In this document: piece after piece, positions 6,001-11,394 of the stretch
Layout: every line of letters starts with the position of its first letter
Numbering within the stretch: position 1 is the stretch's first letter
From: Myxococcales bacterium 68-20
Lineage (GTDB): Bacteria > Myxococcota_A > Polyangia > Polyangiales > Polyangiaceae
Assembly (NCBI GenBank): GCA_001899635.1
Contig: MKVQ01000041.1
Coordinates: 186,001 to 250,000, forward strand
Reading direction: 5' to 3'
DNA: 64,000 nt
Program-made: the position numbers and the translations under genes
Notes under the pieces: model-generated
What the model saw: the letters and a program-made list of their open reading frames with translations, nothing else
The model's database searches: none
What the model was told of the DNA's origin: nothing

Positions 6001-6044
6001 GCAAGGGCGAGAATGCCGAGGCGCGTCCTACCGGGGAGCCTCAT
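3012..6044 (-). CDS. Membrane protein with two VWA domains and a GATase-like domain
   Basis: This 1010-residue protein is the last gene of the MoxR operon. Five hydrophobic segments fill residues 10-170. A first VWA-like domain begins at VYLVDVSES (about 185). A beta-rich region follows, then a class I glutamine-amidotransferase-like fold (YDFVILSDA, LGGGFLFAGGE, about 430-520). A canonical VWA domain with MIDAS DRSGSMS sits at about 549, with the threonine loop AGGGTEIF and TDGQAS. A last membrane span lies near residue 980. The GATase triad is not evident, so that domain is probably structural. Start codon and upstream stop overlap as ATGA, which fixes the start and implies translational coupling. 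Such proteins accompany MoxR chaperones. Confidence 0.85.
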   Translation of the reverse strand: MRLPGRTRLGILALALAAAAIGVFVSNKLTNGLVWGFLSQRTDLLLTGAIAAGCGWVILKALGELALQLRARKPIETARIVFAVVGGIVGLVGVWIYWRAVLNASEATISFARNGTDYELLSPKMLGLALLAPFFFWMIGRSLADLPLPQRILSVILRVAFVALLALGLSRLARTATTQKVATVYLVDVSESVPDAAIEDAREEITKGLKEKPEDAIVRVVTFAKRPRVVAIADDAKEAPALERHDLPPSKDGVPTKGRTGLGAATDIASAMQLAYGLYPSGYLRRAVVFSDGVQTDGDILAEANRARAFGVKVFTVPYHRPVPGEVALRDLRLPEKVRVGEPFNLHANIFSSRPQKVRATLKQGEAINGLDGIRDVDLKPGDNDVTFKSVVRVAGEVTYALELSDIPEDRFRENNRFAVSVAVPGRPSVLYAEGNTARASYLASALSAQEFDVDVRSPREVPSSIRELERYDFVILSDAPAEAVSLTQQDAIESYVRDLGGGFLFAGGEAGFGLGGWSRTTIERILPVRMDSEKKRDEPQVAMVLVIDRSGSMSGLPMEMAKAAAKATADTLSSDDLIEVIAFDTAPTRVVRMTAAKHRARIQNDIARVQAGGGTEIFSALDAAYQSLTSTRARRKHVILLTDGQASHNGIRDLVQAMAAEAITVTSVGLGSGIDEGLLRMISDLGGGRLYKVMDPQQLPRVFTRETEMVSRNAAVEEYFQPKVVSPADFLRGVDMASAPFLHGYVATKMKPPPAQEILQSEVAEPILARWHVGLGWSLAWTSDVKNLWAVEWLRWPGYGQFWGQLVREHMRQKKRQQYDMVASIDPATGHVKASIDAIGGDDRFQNGLDAKLTVTGPQPNGETRKIPMKQTAPGRYESDFPLERFGSFLLHASLEKGIDDGKGGQRSVQVAESFGHVTNPYPREYLALAPDLVTLSRTALVTGGRMDPTPKAVFDPAGESIRYHEDLWSRFIGAALAVYLIDLLVRRVRIFDRKKTAKPSIPRSAARV

Positions 6045-8101
6045 ACCGTGATCCTCCGGTGATACGTGATCCACTCGATCGCCGTCAGGATGAGCGCGGC
6101 GATCAGGAGGTAGATCCAGATCTCGCGGCGCACGCCGATCTGGAAGCCCGAAAGCGAGCCGGCCTTCTTGCCGTCGACGACCAGCTCCTTCGCGACTTCG
6201 ATCGAGCTCTCCTCGGCGTCGAGGAGGTTCGCCGCGAACGCCGTCGTCGTCGTGGGCGCGTCGGACGCAGCGGGAGGCGCATCCTTCGCTGCAGGGGCGG
6301 GAGCGTCCGGCGACGGCGCGTCGAGGCCCTTCGTCGGGTCGAGCCCCTCCGCCCCCGCGAGCTCGTAGAAGCCTGCCTGCTCACCGAGGTAGACCGCACG
6401 CCCTTCGTGCACCGGCACGAGCAGCTCGGTGCCGCTCGGCGTCTTCAGCCTCGCCTGCCCCGTCTGCGTCACGACCGGCACGCGCCAGACGTCGCCGGTG
6501 CGGAAGCTCGAGATGTACTGCGAGTCCTCGTCGGTGAAGAAGTTGACGCTGTTGAGGAGCACGAGCGGCCACGCGACGCGGAGCGGGAGATCGCTGTCGC
6601 GGACGTCGAAGCCCATCGCGACGAACTTGTAGCCGCCGCGCTGACCGGTCACGAGGATCGGGCCGTCGACGCTTGCGCCGACGACCTTGTCTCCCGGCTG
6701 CGGCACGAGCTTGCGACCGCGTGCGATGTTCACGTCGTCGAGCGCGGTCCAGCGGACAATCGGATGTTTGCGCTCGATGCGGTCGAACCCCGGGCTCTTC
6801 AGCTCGTTCTCGACCTTCACCGGCGAGCCGGGCCCGCGCGGATCGAGGTAGATCGCGTGCGCGCGCGGGGCATCGGAGGGGGTCGCTCCGTCGAAGATCA
6901 CGACATCGTGCTTCTGCCCGCTCGGCGCGATCTTCTCGGCGTACTCCCGCGGAGAGACGAGCTGCACGTCGAGGTACTCGTCCAGGAGGAGCGCCGCCTC
7001 GAGATAGGTGTTTCCCGGCGTCACGACGAGCACCTTCGCTCGGCGCCGCTCCGGAAGCAGCGCGTACGCGCGATCGTCTGCCGGCAGCTCGTCCACGCTG
7101 TTCGCGAGCACCGCTAGCCTCGCCTCGAGCGCGCGGCTCGCACCGGAGAGGTTCGGATAGAACCGCGGCAGCCGCTCGCCGGGCTTGAGCCGCAGCTTCG
7201 TCAGGTCGACGAGCTGGCCCTTCTCCCCTCCCATCCCCGCACCGGCGCCCGCGCCCGCACCGGCGCCCGCGTGATCCGTCCCCCTCGGATCGGCGTAGAG
7301 CGAGAGCTCGACGTCCTCGGTCTCCGGCCCGGTGTTCGTCACCTCGAGCATCACCTCGTAGCGACTCTTGTCGAGCGGGTAGCGCCGCACCGAGAACGCG
7401 GTGATCCCGACGTTCCGCACGCCTCGCCCGATCGGGATGTACGAGAGCTTGATGTCTTCGCCGAGGTGCACCTTGCCCGACGCGTCGACCGCCTCCCCCA
7501 GCCGTCCGTCCGAGACGACGACGATCTCCGCGTTCTCCACGCTGCGCAGCGAGTCGATCGCAAAGCGGAGCGCCCGCGGGAAGTCCGCCCGCGCGTCCGT
7601 CGCCTTGATCGCGTCGAGCGCGCGCTCGAGCTCCGACGTATCCGAGCTCGTCGGCCCGAGCGGCGTGACCGCCGCGTCCATCTGGGCGATCAACATGCGG
7701 TCCGATCCGCCGAGGCCACGGATCACCTTCTTCACTTCGTCCTTCGCCGCCTCGAGTCGGTTCTTCGCCGGCGCCACGTCGGTCGCCTGCATCGAGGCAC
7801 TCGCGTCGACGATGACGACGAGGTTCCTCCCCTTGATCAGCGTCGCCGCCGCGCGCGGATCACCGAGCGCGAACGCGAGGAGCGCGAGGAGCGCGAGCTG
7901 CACCAGCAGGGAGAGGAGCCGCTTCAGGCGCGAGAAGAGGCTCGTCGCCTCCTTGTCGCGCAGGATCTTCTCCCACAGCTTCGAGAACGGCACCGCAACG
8001 GTCCGCCGTCGCAGCTTCAAGATGTAGAGAGCCGTCGCAAAGACGGCCGCCGCGCCGAACACGGCGGCCAGCTGCGCGAGCGAAAGCCCCGCGAAGATCA
8101 T
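6041..8101 (-). CDS. BatA-like VWA domain membrane protein
   Basis: This 686-residue protein begins with the BatA-type N-terminus: one membrane span, the basic segment LKLRRRTVAVPF, and a second span (SLLVQLALLALLAFALGDPR). A VWA domain follows with MIDAS VDASASM at about residue 97 and a second acidic loop VVSDGRLG. The middle has beta-sandwich character and a Gly-Ala linker. A GATase-like region (KVLVVTPGNTYLEAALL, DVVIFDGATPSD) precedes a C-terminal span. BatA proteins work with MoxR AAA+ chaperones, usually on envelope or metal-dependent targets. The ATG is preceded by GGAGGG. Its operon partner DUF58 lies 1.3 kb upstream because of inserted DNA, and a separate promoter may be needed. Confidence 0.85.
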   Translation of the reverse strand: MIFAGLSLAQLAAVFGAAAVFATALYILKLRRRTVAVPFSKLWEKILRDKEATSLFSRLKRLLSLLVQLALLALLAFALGDPRAAATLIKGRNLVVIVDASASMQATDVAPAKNRLEAAKDEVKKVIRGLGGSDRMLIAQMDAAVTPLGPTSSDTSELERALDAIKATDARADFPRALRFAIDSLRSVENAEIVVVSDGRLGEAVDASGKVHLGEDIKLSYIPIGRGVRNVGITAFSVRRYPLDKSRYEVMLEVTNTGPETEDVELSLYADPRGTDHAGAGAGAGAGAGMGGEKGQLVDLTKLRLKPGERLPRFYPNLSGASRALEARLAVLANSVDELPADDRAYALLPERRRAKVLVVTPGNTYLEAALLLDEYLDVQLVSPREYAEKIAPSGQKHDVVIFDGATPSDAPRAHAIYLDPRGPGSPVKVENELKSPGFDRIERKHPIVRWTALDDVNIARGRKLVPQPGDKVVGASVDGPILVTGQRGGYKFVAMGFDVRDSDLPLRVAWPLVLLNSVNFFTDEDSQYISSFRTGDVWRVPVVTQTGQARLKTPSGTELLVPVHEGRAVYLGEQAGFYELAGAEGLDPTKGLDAPSPDAPAPAAKDAPPAASDAPTTTTAFAANLLDAEESSIEVAKELVVDGKKAGSLSGFQIGVRREIWIYLLIAALILTAIEWITYHRRITV

Positions 8102-8160
8102 GCGGCCGCCCTCCGAACGGTTCTCGACAACCAGTCACGCGATCCGGCCGAAGAGGCGCC

Positions 8161-8742
8161 ATGACCACCCACGCAAAGCATCGACACTGGGACCTGACCG
8201 AAGCCGTGATCGGTGCGCTGATCGAGGTCCATCGCCAGCTTGGCCCGGGGCTCCTCGAGTCGGTGTACGAGCTGTGCCTTGCCGAAGAGCTCCGCTACCG
8301 CGGGCTTCGCTTTGCGCGCCAAGTTCCAATCACGGTGTTCTATCGAGACGTGGTGGTCCGAGCTGCCTATCAGGCCGACCTGATCGTCGAAGAGCGGCTC
8401 CTCATCGAGCTCAAGGCGGTCGAGTCGTTCGCGCCCATTCACATTGCGCAGACGTTGACGTACCTGAAGCTGCTCCGACTCGACCTCGGTCTTCTCGTCA
8501 ACTTCAACTGCGTCGCCCTCAAGGACGGACTCCGGCGACTGACGCTCTCGCCCTCTCGTGGGCCGGACGAGCTCTCGCCCGCCGCTCACCCCTCTCGTGG
8601 GAGAGAGAACAAGCTCTCCCGCTCGCACTCCGCTCGTGGGCAGAACGAGCTCTCGCGCTCGCCCGCCGCTCACCCCTCTCGTGGGAGAGAGAACGAGACG
8701 AAGAGGATTATTCACAGGGAGACAGGGAGACAGGGAGGATGA
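8161..8742 (+). CDS. GxxExxY family protein with repeat-encoded C-terminal tail
   Basis: Residues 1-130 match the GxxExxY family: the name motif is in PGLLESVYE, followed by YRDVVVRAAYQADLIVEERLLIELKAV and LGLLVNFN. The Asp/Glu-x-Lys pattern (DLIVE, ELKA) recalls PD-(D/E)XK nucleases, and the family has been proposed to bind or cut nucleic acid, though its function is not settled. Family members usually end soon after the LVNFN segment. Here translation runs about 60 residues further, through 37-bp repeats, giving a low-complexity tail containing two copies of PAAHPSRGREN. The gene is antisense to the operon it interrupts. The ATG lies 59 bp from the divergent BatA-like gene. Confidence 0.8.
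   Translation: MTTHAKHRHWDLTEAVIGALIEVHRQLGPGLLESVYELCLAEELRYRGLRFARQVPITVFYRDVVVRAAYQADLIVEERLLIELKAVESFAPIHIAQTLTYLKLLRLDLGLLVNFNCVALKDGLRRLTLSPSRGPDELSPAAHPSRGRENKLSRSHSARGQNELSRSPAAHPSRGRENETKRIIHRETGRQGG
8574..8610 (+). repeat. 37-bp direct repeat, copy 1
   Basis: This stretch beginning CTCGCCCGCCGCTCACCCC recurs exactly at 8658-8694, 84 bp downstream, inside the 3' part of the GxxExxY reading frame. Both copies contain the core CTCTCGTGGGAGAGAG, itself a short hairpin, and shorter CTCGTGGG copies lie around them. Confidence 0.85.
8658..8694 (+). repeat. 37-bp direct repeat, copy 2
   Basis: Exact copy of 8574-8610. Because the spacing is a multiple of three, both copies encode the same peptide in the tail of the GxxExxY protein. 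Confidence 0.85.
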
Positions 8743-8830
8743 AGGCCCTCCTTCCTTTTCAACCTGGACCCTCGTGGGTGCTCCCAGAATCGCTGCGCGA
8801 TTCTGCTCGCAGAATTTGAGCCTCCCTTTT
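8704..8830 (+). repeat. Hairpin-bearing element, left arm of inverted pair
   Basis: It contains ACAGGGAGACAGGGAG, a spacer ending CCTCGTGGGT, and a perfect 9-bp hairpin CAGAATCGC-TGC-GCGATTCTG at 8785-8805. A second overlapping palindrome (ATTCTGC-TC-GCAGAAT) follows it. The right arm at 9050-9168 is a diverged inverted copy whose hairpin keeps its pairing through compensatory changes. Confidence 0.75.
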
Positions 8831-9049
8831 GACCTACGAGGTGATTCAGCAGAGGCACTGGCGTCATTGCCGGCTGCACGGGTCTCATGGAGCACGCGCA
8901 CTCGCGAAAGCGAAAGCGAAAGCGAAAGCGGCCCGCGCGAAGACGCAGCCCAGCCCTTGCAGTCCAGACCAATCACACTCTCCCGAAGGTCTCGGGCCAA
9001 AGCTTGGAAGACGCACCGTTTGGGCAAAGACATCGGAGCCCGGAAGTGA

Positions 9050-9168
9050 GATCTCCCTTTCCGGAAGGAAATGCGGAGCATTTCCTGAGGACCCACGAGG
9101 CACCAGGTCGAAAGGGAAGGAACCCCCTCTCGCTCCCTGTCTCCCTGTCTCCCTGTAAATCTCTCTCT
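9050..9168 (-). repeat. Hairpin-bearing element, right arm of inverted pair
   Basis: Read on the minus strand it matches the left arm through ACAGGGAGACAGGGAG and CCTCGTGGGT with identical spacing, then carries AGGAAATGC-TCC-GCATTTCCT at 9066-9086. Three base pairs of this stem differ from the left arm, and both partners of each pair have changed. Confidence 0.75.
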
Positions 9169-9196
9169 TCGTCTTGGTCTCGCAGTGCGAACAACG

Positions 9197-9340
9197 AACG
9201 AACCGCAAGCACCGAACGAACCGCAAGCACCGAACGAACCGCAAGCACCGAACGAACCGCAAGCACCGAACGAACCGCAAGCACCGAACGAACCGCAAGC
9301 ACCGAACGGACCGCGAACAACGAACGGACCGCGAGCGACA
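9197..9340 (+). repeat. 18-bp tandem array (six perfect and two degenerate units)
   Basis: The unit AACGAACCGCAAGCACCG is repeated six times without interruption, followed by two diverged units in which GAA becomes GGA. No spacers are present, so it is not a CRISPR. One plus-strand frame would read NEPQAP repeats, but no proper gene context exists. Confidence 0.85.
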
Positions 9341-9395
9341 GGAACCGAGAGCGAGACCGCTCTCAGCGCAACGCCGCCGGGAAACGACGACAGGA

Positions 9396-10331
9396 TCACC
9401 GTAGGAACCCTCCGCGGCGGAAGACGCGCAGGATGAGCTCGTCGAAGGGGGTGTTCACGTCCGCGCGAATGTACGGCACCTGCTTCGAGGTGCAGAAGCG
9501 ATCGATCTCGTCGAGGTAGCTCCGGTACGCGGACTCGAAGCGCTCGAGCACCTTCGCGGTCACGGTGACCTCGCGCTCGTCGCCCGTCTCGCAGTCGTAG
9601 AGGAGGACGTCGCCTGCGAGCTTCGGCTTGGCTTCCTCCTCGTCGACGACGTGCACGACGAACGGGTCGAACTTGTTGTAGCGGAGCACGTTGATGCCGC
9701 GCTCGAAGCCGTGAGGGTCGTAGAGATCGCTCGCGAGGACGACGAGACCGCGGCGCTTGTTCTGCGCCACGAACGCCTTGATCGCGTCCTCCAGGTTGGT
9801 CCGGCCCTCGGGCTCGAGCTCCTCGAGGAACCGGAAGACCTTGAAGATGCGCGCCTTGCCTCGCGTCGCGGGCATGCGATCGAGCACCTTGTCGGTCGTG
9901 GAGACGATGCTCACGCGATCGAGGTTCGCGAGCCCGACGTACGCGAGCGCCGCCGCAACGCGCTTGGCATAGCGGAGCTTCTTCGCGTCGCCGAAGCCCA
10001 TCGACGAGCTCGCATCGACGATGAAGTAGATGGCGAGGTCCTCTTCCTCCTCATAGAGGCGGAGGAGGAGCCGATCGAAGCGCTGGAAGACGTTCCAATC
10101 GAGGTAGCGGAAGTCGTCGCCCGGCTGGTAGTCGCGGTGATCGGCGAACTCGACGCCCGAGCCGCTCTTCTTCGTGCGCCGCTCGGCGCGCATACGGCCG
10201 GCGAACACGCGCTTCGAGACGAGCGCGAGGTAGTCGAGCTTGCGCTGGAACTCGTCGTCGAAGAGCGCGTCGCTCGACTTCTTCGCTACCGCCGGTCCCC
10301 GCCGCCCGAGGACGGCGTCAAGAAAGCCCAC
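9396..10331 (-). CDS. DUF58 domain protein
   Basis: This 311-residue protein shows the DUF58 signature GSGVEFADHRDYQPGDD followed by RYLDWNVFQRFD, then a VWA-like segment with IVDASSSMG and VLASDLYDP. DUF58 proteins are encoded beside MoxR ATPases and BatA-like proteins and are thought to be part of the same chaperone or co-insertion machinery. The GTG start was chosen because GGGGAGGAG lies just upstream and the codon sits inside the end of the MoxR gene, a 14-bp overlap; a GTG 15 bp earlier is an alternative. The gene is followed by 1.3 kb of inserted DNA instead of the next operon member. Confidence 0.88.
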   Translation of the reverse strand: MGFLDAVLGRRGPAVAKKSSDALFDDEFQRKLDYLALVSKRVFAGRMRAERRTKKSGSGVEFADHRDYQPGDDFRYLDWNVFQRFDRLLLRLYEEEEDLAIYFIVDASSSMGFGDAKKLRYAKRVAAALAYVGLANLDRVSIVSTTDKVLDRMPATRGKARIFKVFRFLEELEPEGRTNLEDAIKAFVAQNKRRGLVVLASDLYDPHGFERGINVLRYNKFDPFVVHVVDEEEAKPKLAGDVLLYDCETGDEREVTVTAKVLERFESAYRSYLDEIDRFCTSKQVPYIRADVNTPFDELILRVFRRGGFLR

Positions 10332-11394
10332 GCGTCTCCTCCCCACGGCCGCGTGGGGTTCCCTGCGCCTCCGAGCGACCCGCGCCCGGCTTCGTCTCCG
10401 GGAGCGCCTTCAGGATCGCGTCGAGGACCTCGTCGGTCTTCACGCCTTCGGCTTCGCCCTCGAAGTTGAGGAGCGTGCGATGGCGGAGCGCGGGGAGCGC
10501 GACGGCGCGGACGTCGTCGATGCTGGCGGCGAAGCGCCCCTCGAAGAGCGACCGGATCTTGGCGGCGAGGAGCACCGACTGCGCGCCGCGGGGCGAAGCG
10601 CCGAAGCGGACGAAGCGCTTGCACATGTCCGGTGCGTCGGGCCCGTCGGGGTGCGTCGCCTGGACGACGCGGATGGCGTAGTCCTGCACGTGCCTGGCGA
10701 CCGGCACGCGGCGAACCAGCGACTGCATCCGGAGGATGTCGTCGCGGTGCAGCACCGCCGCACGACCGGGGCGAGCCTCTCCCGTCGTGAGATCGAGGAT
10801 GGCGTGGAGCTCCTCGCGGTTCGGGAACGGTACGTGGAGCTTCATGAAGAAGCGATCGAGCTGCGCTTCGGGAAGCGGATAGGTACCTTCCGACTCGAGC
10901 GGGTTCTGCGTCGCGAGGACGACGAACGGCTCCTCGAGCGAGTGGGTGCGACGACCGACGGTGACGCGATGCTCCTGCATCGCCTCGAGGAGCGCCGACT
11001 GCGTCTTCGGCGTGGCGCGGTTGATCTCGTCGGCGAGGACGATGTTCGCGAAGATCGGTCCCTTGCGGAACTCGAACACCCTTCCCCCCGCCTGCGTCTC
11101 GTCGATGACGGTGGTGCCGAGGATGTCGGCGGGCATCAGGTCGGGCGTGAACTGCACGCGCGAGAACGCGAGGCTCAGCGCCTCGGCCAGCGTGCGGACG
11201 AGCATCGTCTTGCCGAGCCCCGGGACGCCTTCGAGGAGCGCGTGGCCACCGGCGAGGAGACACATCAGCACGCCGTCGATGACCGGCTCGTTGCCGACGA
11301 TCGTCTTGCCAATCTCCGTCTTCAGCGTCGCGATCGAAACGCGAAACTGATCGACCTCGGCGCGCACCGCGCCCGCGTCAACGCTCTCAGCCAT
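10318..11394 (-). CDS. MoxR family AAA+ ATPase
   Basis: This 358-residue protein is of typical MoxR length. The Walker A motif GVPGLGKT lies at 56-63, Walker B VLADEINRATPKTQSALLEAM at about 119-139, and sensor 1 in VVLATQNPLESEGTYPLPEAQ. The C-terminal AAA lid domain carries GASPRGAQ. MoxR proteins use ATP to mature or activate partner complexes, with VWA proteins as adaptors. The C-terminal 25 residues are basic and disordered and overlap the DUF58 gene. Upstream lie 171 bp containing one copy of the interspersed hairpin repeat. Confidence 0.93.
   Translation of the reverse strand: MAESVDAGAVRAEVDQFRVSIATLKTEIGKTIVGNEPVIDGVLMCLLAGGHALLEGVPGLGKTMLVRTLAEALSLAFSRVQFTPDLMPADILGTTVIDETQAGGRVFEFRKGPIFANIVLADEINRATPKTQSALLEAMQEHRVTVGRRTHSLEEPFVVLATQNPLESEGTYPLPEAQLDRFFMKLHVPFPNREELHAILDLTTGEARPGRAAVLHRDDILRMQSLVRRVPVARHVQDYAIRVVQATHPDGPDAPDMCKRFVRFGASPRGAQSVLLAAKIRSLFEGRFAASIDDVRAVALPALRHRTLLNFEGEAEGVKTDEVLDAILKALPETKPGAGRSEAQGTPRGRGEETRGLS

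Follow-up and report, generated by a model that had tools for sequence, protein, structure and literature searches.

MITEs have inverted ends, carry no gene of their own, are dispersed and vary in length. We analyzed a window of 64,000 nt from Myxococcales bacterium 68-20, in which an element at positions 8714 to 9156 resembles MITEs in its inverted ends, its dispersal and its variable length, and in that no gene of its own was seen. The element also resembles the REPIN/RAYT system, as described by Bertels and Rainey 2011 (PMC3116915), in having short inverted pairs that form hairpins, dispersed copies without a gene and a linked enzyme gene. Our best reading is that it is a non-autonomous, REPIN- or MITE-like repeat of an apparently undescribed class linked to GxxExxY genes; the link between the element and GxxExxY is new here.

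The element, its hairpins and its site

The element is 443 nt long and is made up of inverted arrays of an 8-bp unit, hairpins and a variable center of roughly 300 nt. An earlier note, made from the sequence alone, had described an inverted pair of hairpin elements with a common ladder, and so it proved: the ladder has three ACAGGGAG units per side, at 8714 to 8737 on the plus strand and at 9133 to 9156 on the minus strand. A repeat search of the window placed the long inverted arms at 8689 to 8783 and 9087 to 9181 (95 nt each, 80% complementary, 303 nt between them). An AT-rich and GA-rich outer part starts at about 8696 on the left, and the outer part on the right extends to about 9175. From outside in, each arm carries the three units, a stretch common to both arms that runs from CCTGG to CCTCGTGGG, and a hairpin with an overlapping palindrome; the outer unit ACAGGGAG is a nonpalindromic direct repeat, and the palindromes are internal. 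Both hairpins have a 9-bp stem and the 3-nt loop seen earlier, and their stems differ in sequence as had been claimed: the left one (8785 to 8805, plus strand) reads CAGAATCGC-TGC-GCGATTCTG, the right one (9066 to 9086, minus strand) AGGAAATGC-GGA-GCATTTCCT. The second, overlapping palindrome reported for both arms is likewise present, as ATTCTG-CTCG-CAGAAT on the left (8800 to 8815, plus strand) and TTTCC-GGAA-GGAAA on the right (9058 to 9071, minus strand). To the right of the element, between 9190 and 9330, lies a tandem 18-nt repeat (GAACGAACCGCAAGCACC).

Four of the nine stem pairs differ between the left and right arms in the window, every one of them compensated; the compensatory change that the earlier note had seen is real, but its count of three was too low. 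Its proposal that the stem is kept by paired change holds within this genome. Over 15 arms of the eight long copies (the right arm of L006, which has lost its hairpin, was left out), 99.3% of the cells are paired, and four of the nine pairs changed on both sides, in 26 cells. None of 500 shuffles reached the observed pairing percentage, double-change cell count or covariation score; the observed number of double-change pairs was reached by 313 of 500, and that of further pair types by all 500. Sliding the stem alignment by one to three columns lowers the pairing to 32 to 53%. Independent covariation events are few, because most double changes amount to one split between left and right arms, alongside which two left arms carry a C-G/T-A change. 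By pattern match the hairpin is kept in 8/8 left and 7/8 right arms of the long copies. Z-scores for folding as DNA range from −2.4 to −4.0. The small-RNA reading fared less well: nothing specific to it was seen, and the five Rfam matches between 8400 and 9500 all lie far below gathering scores.

The genome (11.9 Mb, 52 contigs) contains eight long copies in unrelated places, the window copy included; where they match that copy, identity to it is 73 to 90%. A ninth copy (L078) is a short pair without hairpins. Terminal inverted repeats and dispersed copies are thus present, as in a MITE. Brought into one orientation, the eight copies are alike in the arrays and in what these enclose, apart from a variable center, and outside the arrays only the AT-/GA-rich fringe is alike, so that the arrays are the outermost common sequence of the alignment. 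Arrays differ in how many units they have, and the span between the outermost units is 410 to 707 nt in the long copies and 40 nt in the short one. The 16-mer ACAGGGAGACAGGGAG occurs 28 times in the genome, its reversed pattern, used as a control, not once. No consistent target-site duplication was found among the nine copies, the longest common flanking word having a p value of 0.07 or more in eight of them; the flanks of L007 have a 9-nt CT-run in common (p = 0.003). The eight-copy alignment showed no outer MITE ends, and the nine copies no CTAG-type ends.

In the window, the element is part of a 1.3-kb insert (8102 to 9395) between the genes for BatA (6041 to 8101, minus strand) and DUF58 (9396 to 10346, minus strand). 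The suggestion that it splits a conserved operon is confirmed: the two genes lie side by side in 9 of the 12 genus genomes searched, own included (G001, G002, G003, G005, G007, G008, G009, G010 and G011), their aligned ends overlapping by up to 11 nt or separated by up to 30 nt. The contrast between occupied and empty orthologous sites was hence seen for the window site. G004 (72% complete) matched only weakly. G006 (Labilithrix ACE_MYX7) has a 1.1-kb insert there, with a GxxExxY gene, ACAGGGAG units and a different interior. Together with the dispersed copies and the outermost position of the arrays, the empty sites give good support to the non-autonomous element that the earlier note had listed among its readings, and we are confident that the repeat is real, dispersed and non-autonomous and that its hairpins are maintained.

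The GxxExxY genes of the two occupied sites (window 8161 to 8550 against L365) share 59% of their residues and have a dS of about 1.5, whereas DUF58, BatA and MoxR have a dS of 0.30 to 0.38 between the same two congeners; the dN/dS of the two GxxExxY genes is about 0.22, with dS near saturation. To judge by these sequences, the difference in dS points to a probable replacement, separate arrival or very fast change of the gene at the common site, rather than simple descent.

GxxExxY genes and the arrays that bracket them

The GxxExxY gene of the window (8161 to 8742, plus strand) has its domain at 8191 to 8538, and its frame enters the left array; CTCTCGTGGG repeats lie between the domain and the array (8552 to 8700), and the frame crosses them. 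The gene matches PF13366/TIGR04256, a PD-(D/E)XK nuclease, at 138.6 bits in both profile libraries, above the curated cut-off; the family is PD-(D/E)XK by profile, and the window gene has the corresponding residues. Among 71 GxxExxY proteins without an internal stop, E33 is conserved in 69, D73 in 71, E83 in 70, K85 in 68, Q97 in 67 and Y101 in 68. We take the protein to be RecB/Cas4-like by its ExK and QxxxY residues. GxxExxY proteins were found in several phyla. A sequence search up to an E-value of 10 identified no relative with a solved structure, and an AlphaFold2 model from four sequences was too poor for use (mean pLDDT, 42). In the literature searched, nothing ties the family to repeats, mobility or any role, and no work on bacterial repeats carries the unit strings of the arrays. 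A GxxExxY gene next to a reverse transcriptase is the subject of one passage in PMC8934634.

How far does the ladder reach beyond this genome? The earlier note had expected further copies in related genomes, which holds for the ladder and not for the hairpin stem, seen in its own genome only. In 58 genomes searched, own included, the hairpin-bearing long form had no match outside its own genome, and the matches elsewhere were short stretches, mainly ladder, in four genomes. When 96 genomes, own included, were scanned for the pattern WTTYACAGGGAGRCRRGGAG, 4 had it (13 times in G000, 3 in G006, 44 in G014, a Byssovorax MAG, and 8 in G029), and none of the 96 had its reversed control. Among 84,980 species genomes, 61 stretches matched WTTYACAGGGAGRCRRGGAG; the carriers are Byssovorax, Sorangium and Labilithrix records, two Myxococcales MAGs, and one record each named Candidatus Odyssella, Lachnospiraceae and Rhodospirillales. 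Byssovorax and Labilithrix belong to the Polyangiales, and the Candidatus Odyssella MAG is alphaproteobacterial by name.

Other genomes contain elements that bear a GxxExxY gene and share the unit of the element. In the window, as in G006, the gene stands beside the ACAGGGAG pair (left of it in the window) and not inside, in which the window differs from the gene-bearing elements that we propose; in G014, G029 (where the gene is in two frames) and palsa_1104 the gene lies inside a ACAGGGAG pair. A decayed GxxExxY piece in So0008-312 (L240) also has ACAGGGAG arms and is outside the locus count that follows.

We scored inverted repeats in the 250-nt flanks of GxxExxY genes against a threshold set at the 99th percentile of 1503 control positions at the same loci. 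One set of 11 loci came from genomes chosen through the ACAGGGAG pattern (11 of 17 matches; the partial or contig-edge L236, L239, L240, L243, L246 and L247 were left out). Another 60 loci were taken and 59 tested, L345 lying too near a contig end; 20 of the 59 had been examined beforehand, among them L364 and L365, known to lie near the ACAGGGAG pattern. Weaker, partial or contig-edge matches had been left out by hand before the test. Inverted arrays bracket the gene at 43 of 71 loci: 11/11 in the genomes picked by the ladder, 12/20 of those already examined, 20/39 fresh ones and 0/1 for the window. New random controls gave 44/71, and 500-nt flanks gave 47/71. The same score was reached by 1 of 211 neighboring genes and by none of 40 window genes. 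Among the 28 loci that fail are those of the window and G006 (scores of 17 and 19), which have no left array before the gene.

At the 43 bracketed loci, the arrays run toward the gene in 37 cases, away from it in 3 and undecided in 3, and a clear 8- or 9-nt period is found in 18/43 left arms versus 5/400 random stretches. The median distances between arrays and profile match are 28 and 38 nt. Most bracketing arrays have units of the form RC-NNN-RAG, such as ACAGGGAG, GCACAGAG, GCACGGAG, GCACGAAG, ACGCCAAG, ACGCGGAG, GCGGGAAG and ACGCAAAG; a few passing loci depart from it or run the opposite way (for example, L323, L342, L347 and L360). The window pair, with ACAGGGAG three times on both sides, has this inward-array form. 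On plasmids, 4/8 GxxExxY loci are bracketed (Gemmatirosa, Sphingomonas, Bacteroides and Bernardetia), spanning Gemmatimonadota, Alphaproteobacteria and Bacteroidota; the Gemmatirosa gene scores 107, where one control reached 43, and the weakest, Bernardetia, scores 36 against controls of up to 21. The element of the window is likely, in our view, to be a member of a class of elements that end in arrays and are linked to GxxExxY.

On the Sphingomonas plasmid (L415), the GxxExxY gene and its arrays separate fabD from fabG, which may be a further case of a split operon.

Gene-less pairs and their dispersal

Units can differ within one genome: the GxxExxY genes of Sorangium cellulosum So ce26, where a unit is CCACAGAGG, carry CGCCAAG twice, CCACAGAG and GGCGGGAA. 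Arms tend to be more similar where protein identity is higher (Spearman coefficient of 0.215 over 48 loci, the window arms being placed by hand), a value that 20 of 5000 permutations reached; this is weak evidence for recognition, because close relatives inherit units by descent. The unit pattern ACCACRGAGGCACRGAG of GxxExxY arms occurs 95 times in So0008-312, 29 times in So ce26 and 15 times in the Candidatus Odyssella MAG, each of which has a GxxExxY gene with this pattern in its arms; the remaining 12 of the 15 genomes have 0 to 2 occurrences each, and the reversed control has none in the 15. Gene-less pairs with the unit of a gene abound in some genomes that contain this gene. G026 has a bracketed gene and ACCACRGAGGCACRGAG only in the two arms of that gene, with no dispersed copies; G030 has one ACCACRGAGGCACRGAG pair and no match to the window protein; and G366 has a gene with related arms and no occurrence of the exact pattern. 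No empty site was found among the Sorangium loci compared: one orthologous site is occupied in both So0008-312 and So ce26, and at a second the alignment fails at the element.

We hypothesize that the nuclease recognizes its own unit in paired arrays, which may then be folded into a cruciform or a single-strand hairpin, a form that the conserved inner hairpins would help to produce. It would then cut at the arms, moving or copying its own gene and gene-less pairs. We infer that GxxExxY may bind the units, cut and mobilize the pairs. We give an even chance to the reading that the element is a non-autonomous repeat of a class whose gene-bearing form is the array-bracketed GxxExxY gene, the nuclease mobilizing the pairs. 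That GxxExxY mobilizes the element is plausible, if somewhat short of probable, and we propose only tentatively that it is the mobilizing enzyme of widespread minimal bacterial elements, each with its own 8- to 9-bp unit, and that it spreads gene-less pairs in trans.

The element and its copies could instead be ordinary MITEs of a conventional transposon (DDE or other) whose partner is absent or unrecognized, with GxxExxY as cargo or a chance neighbor. Inverted ends and a variable center fit this, and in Sorangium and Byssovorax such cores are indeed found within a MITE that looks conventional. Of the 18 sites inspected in So ce26 (L396 to L412 and L378), 16 are enclosed by this MITE, which is flanked by CTAG and has inverted ends of roughly 20 nt, the remaining two being the gene-bearing copy and one standing alone; in the Byssovorax MAG, 23 of 39 sites with a ACAGGGAG core lie inside a MITE with CTAG ends of the So ce26 type. 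The MITE, seen in Byssovorax at L089 to L101, carries different array cores in the two genera. The cores in both are interchangeable passengers of this MITE or have entered it repeatedly, and much of the dispersal in these two genomes needs no GxxExxY, because most of the pairs lie inside the CTAG-ended MITE. Such ends were missing from two pairs that we looked at in the Candidatus Odyssella MAG and from 22 sites scanned in other ladder-bearing genomes. In the genome of the window, however, the arrays are outermost and the eight-copy alignment has no outer MITE ends, target duplication is not consistent, and the bracketing of GxxExxY genes lies far above controls, with gene-specific units; we therefore regard a conventional MITE as unlikely, though a serious alternative. 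The enzyme could also be a bystander in another sense, if GxxExxY elements were passive selfish genes that depended, together with their arrays, on an enzyme of the host or of a third party for movement, which may also be the case for four-helix-bundle genes (23S_rRNA_IVP, PF05635). These genes, which are not nucleases, have flanking inverted repeats too, and arrays may for this reason accompany other small selfish genes: 4 of the 20 loci tested score above 33 (22 loci, 2 of them too short for the test). The strongly conserved active site of the nuclease and the dN/dS of about 0.22 at the orthologous site, where dS is near saturation, argue against a passive gene and suggest selection on the enzyme activity, which makes this explanation improbable.

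An equally improbable origin, by our estimate, is that the arrays are cellular sites (a bidirectional transcription end, a chromosome-structure site or a regulator site) spread by recombination, mobility being incidental. By an open-frame listing, 5/8 copies (L004 to L008) lie between convergent frames, and a simple gene caller places 8 of 13 placed solo pairs of the Byssovorax MAG between convergent genes, versus 41/167 gene pairs. However, the solo pairs of So0008-312 are mostly flanked by tandem genes (6 of 7 placed), and we make no strong claim of an orientation preference because gene caller and frame listing disagree for some copies. Moreover, just 4 of the 96 genomes (own included) have the ladder. 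An intrinsic terminator was rejected because of the order of the AT tracts, T-rich before the pair and A-rich after it.

Among the four-helix-bundle matches above 50 bits, three of four are flanked by inverted repeats, of a CGTGGT/CGTAGT hexamer type in L120 (own genome, C40:446228) and L122 (G029) and less regular in L123 (G014).

Comparison with MITEs and REPIN/RAYT

Returning to the GxxExxY-linked repeat that we favor, the element departs from MITEs in that it lacks a consistent target duplication and has a hairpin inside each arm, and no parent transposon with a known transposase was identified for it. If GxxExxY acts on the arrays that bracket it, this would account at once for a set of unexplained intergenic repeats and for an orphan nuclease family, and it would reveal a nuclease system that is sequence-specific and whose unit recognition has diversified in nature. 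A RAYT/Y1 transposase partner (PF01797) was looked for in G000, G006, G014 and G029 and found in none of the four; 5 of 14 control genomes were positive. The ends of the element are arrays of 8-bp units, not REP palindromes, and the enzyme linked here is a PD-(D/E)XK protein, not a Y1 (HUH) transposase. If our reading is true, the GxxExxY-linked elements would be a parallel to REPIN/RAYT on another enzyme fold.
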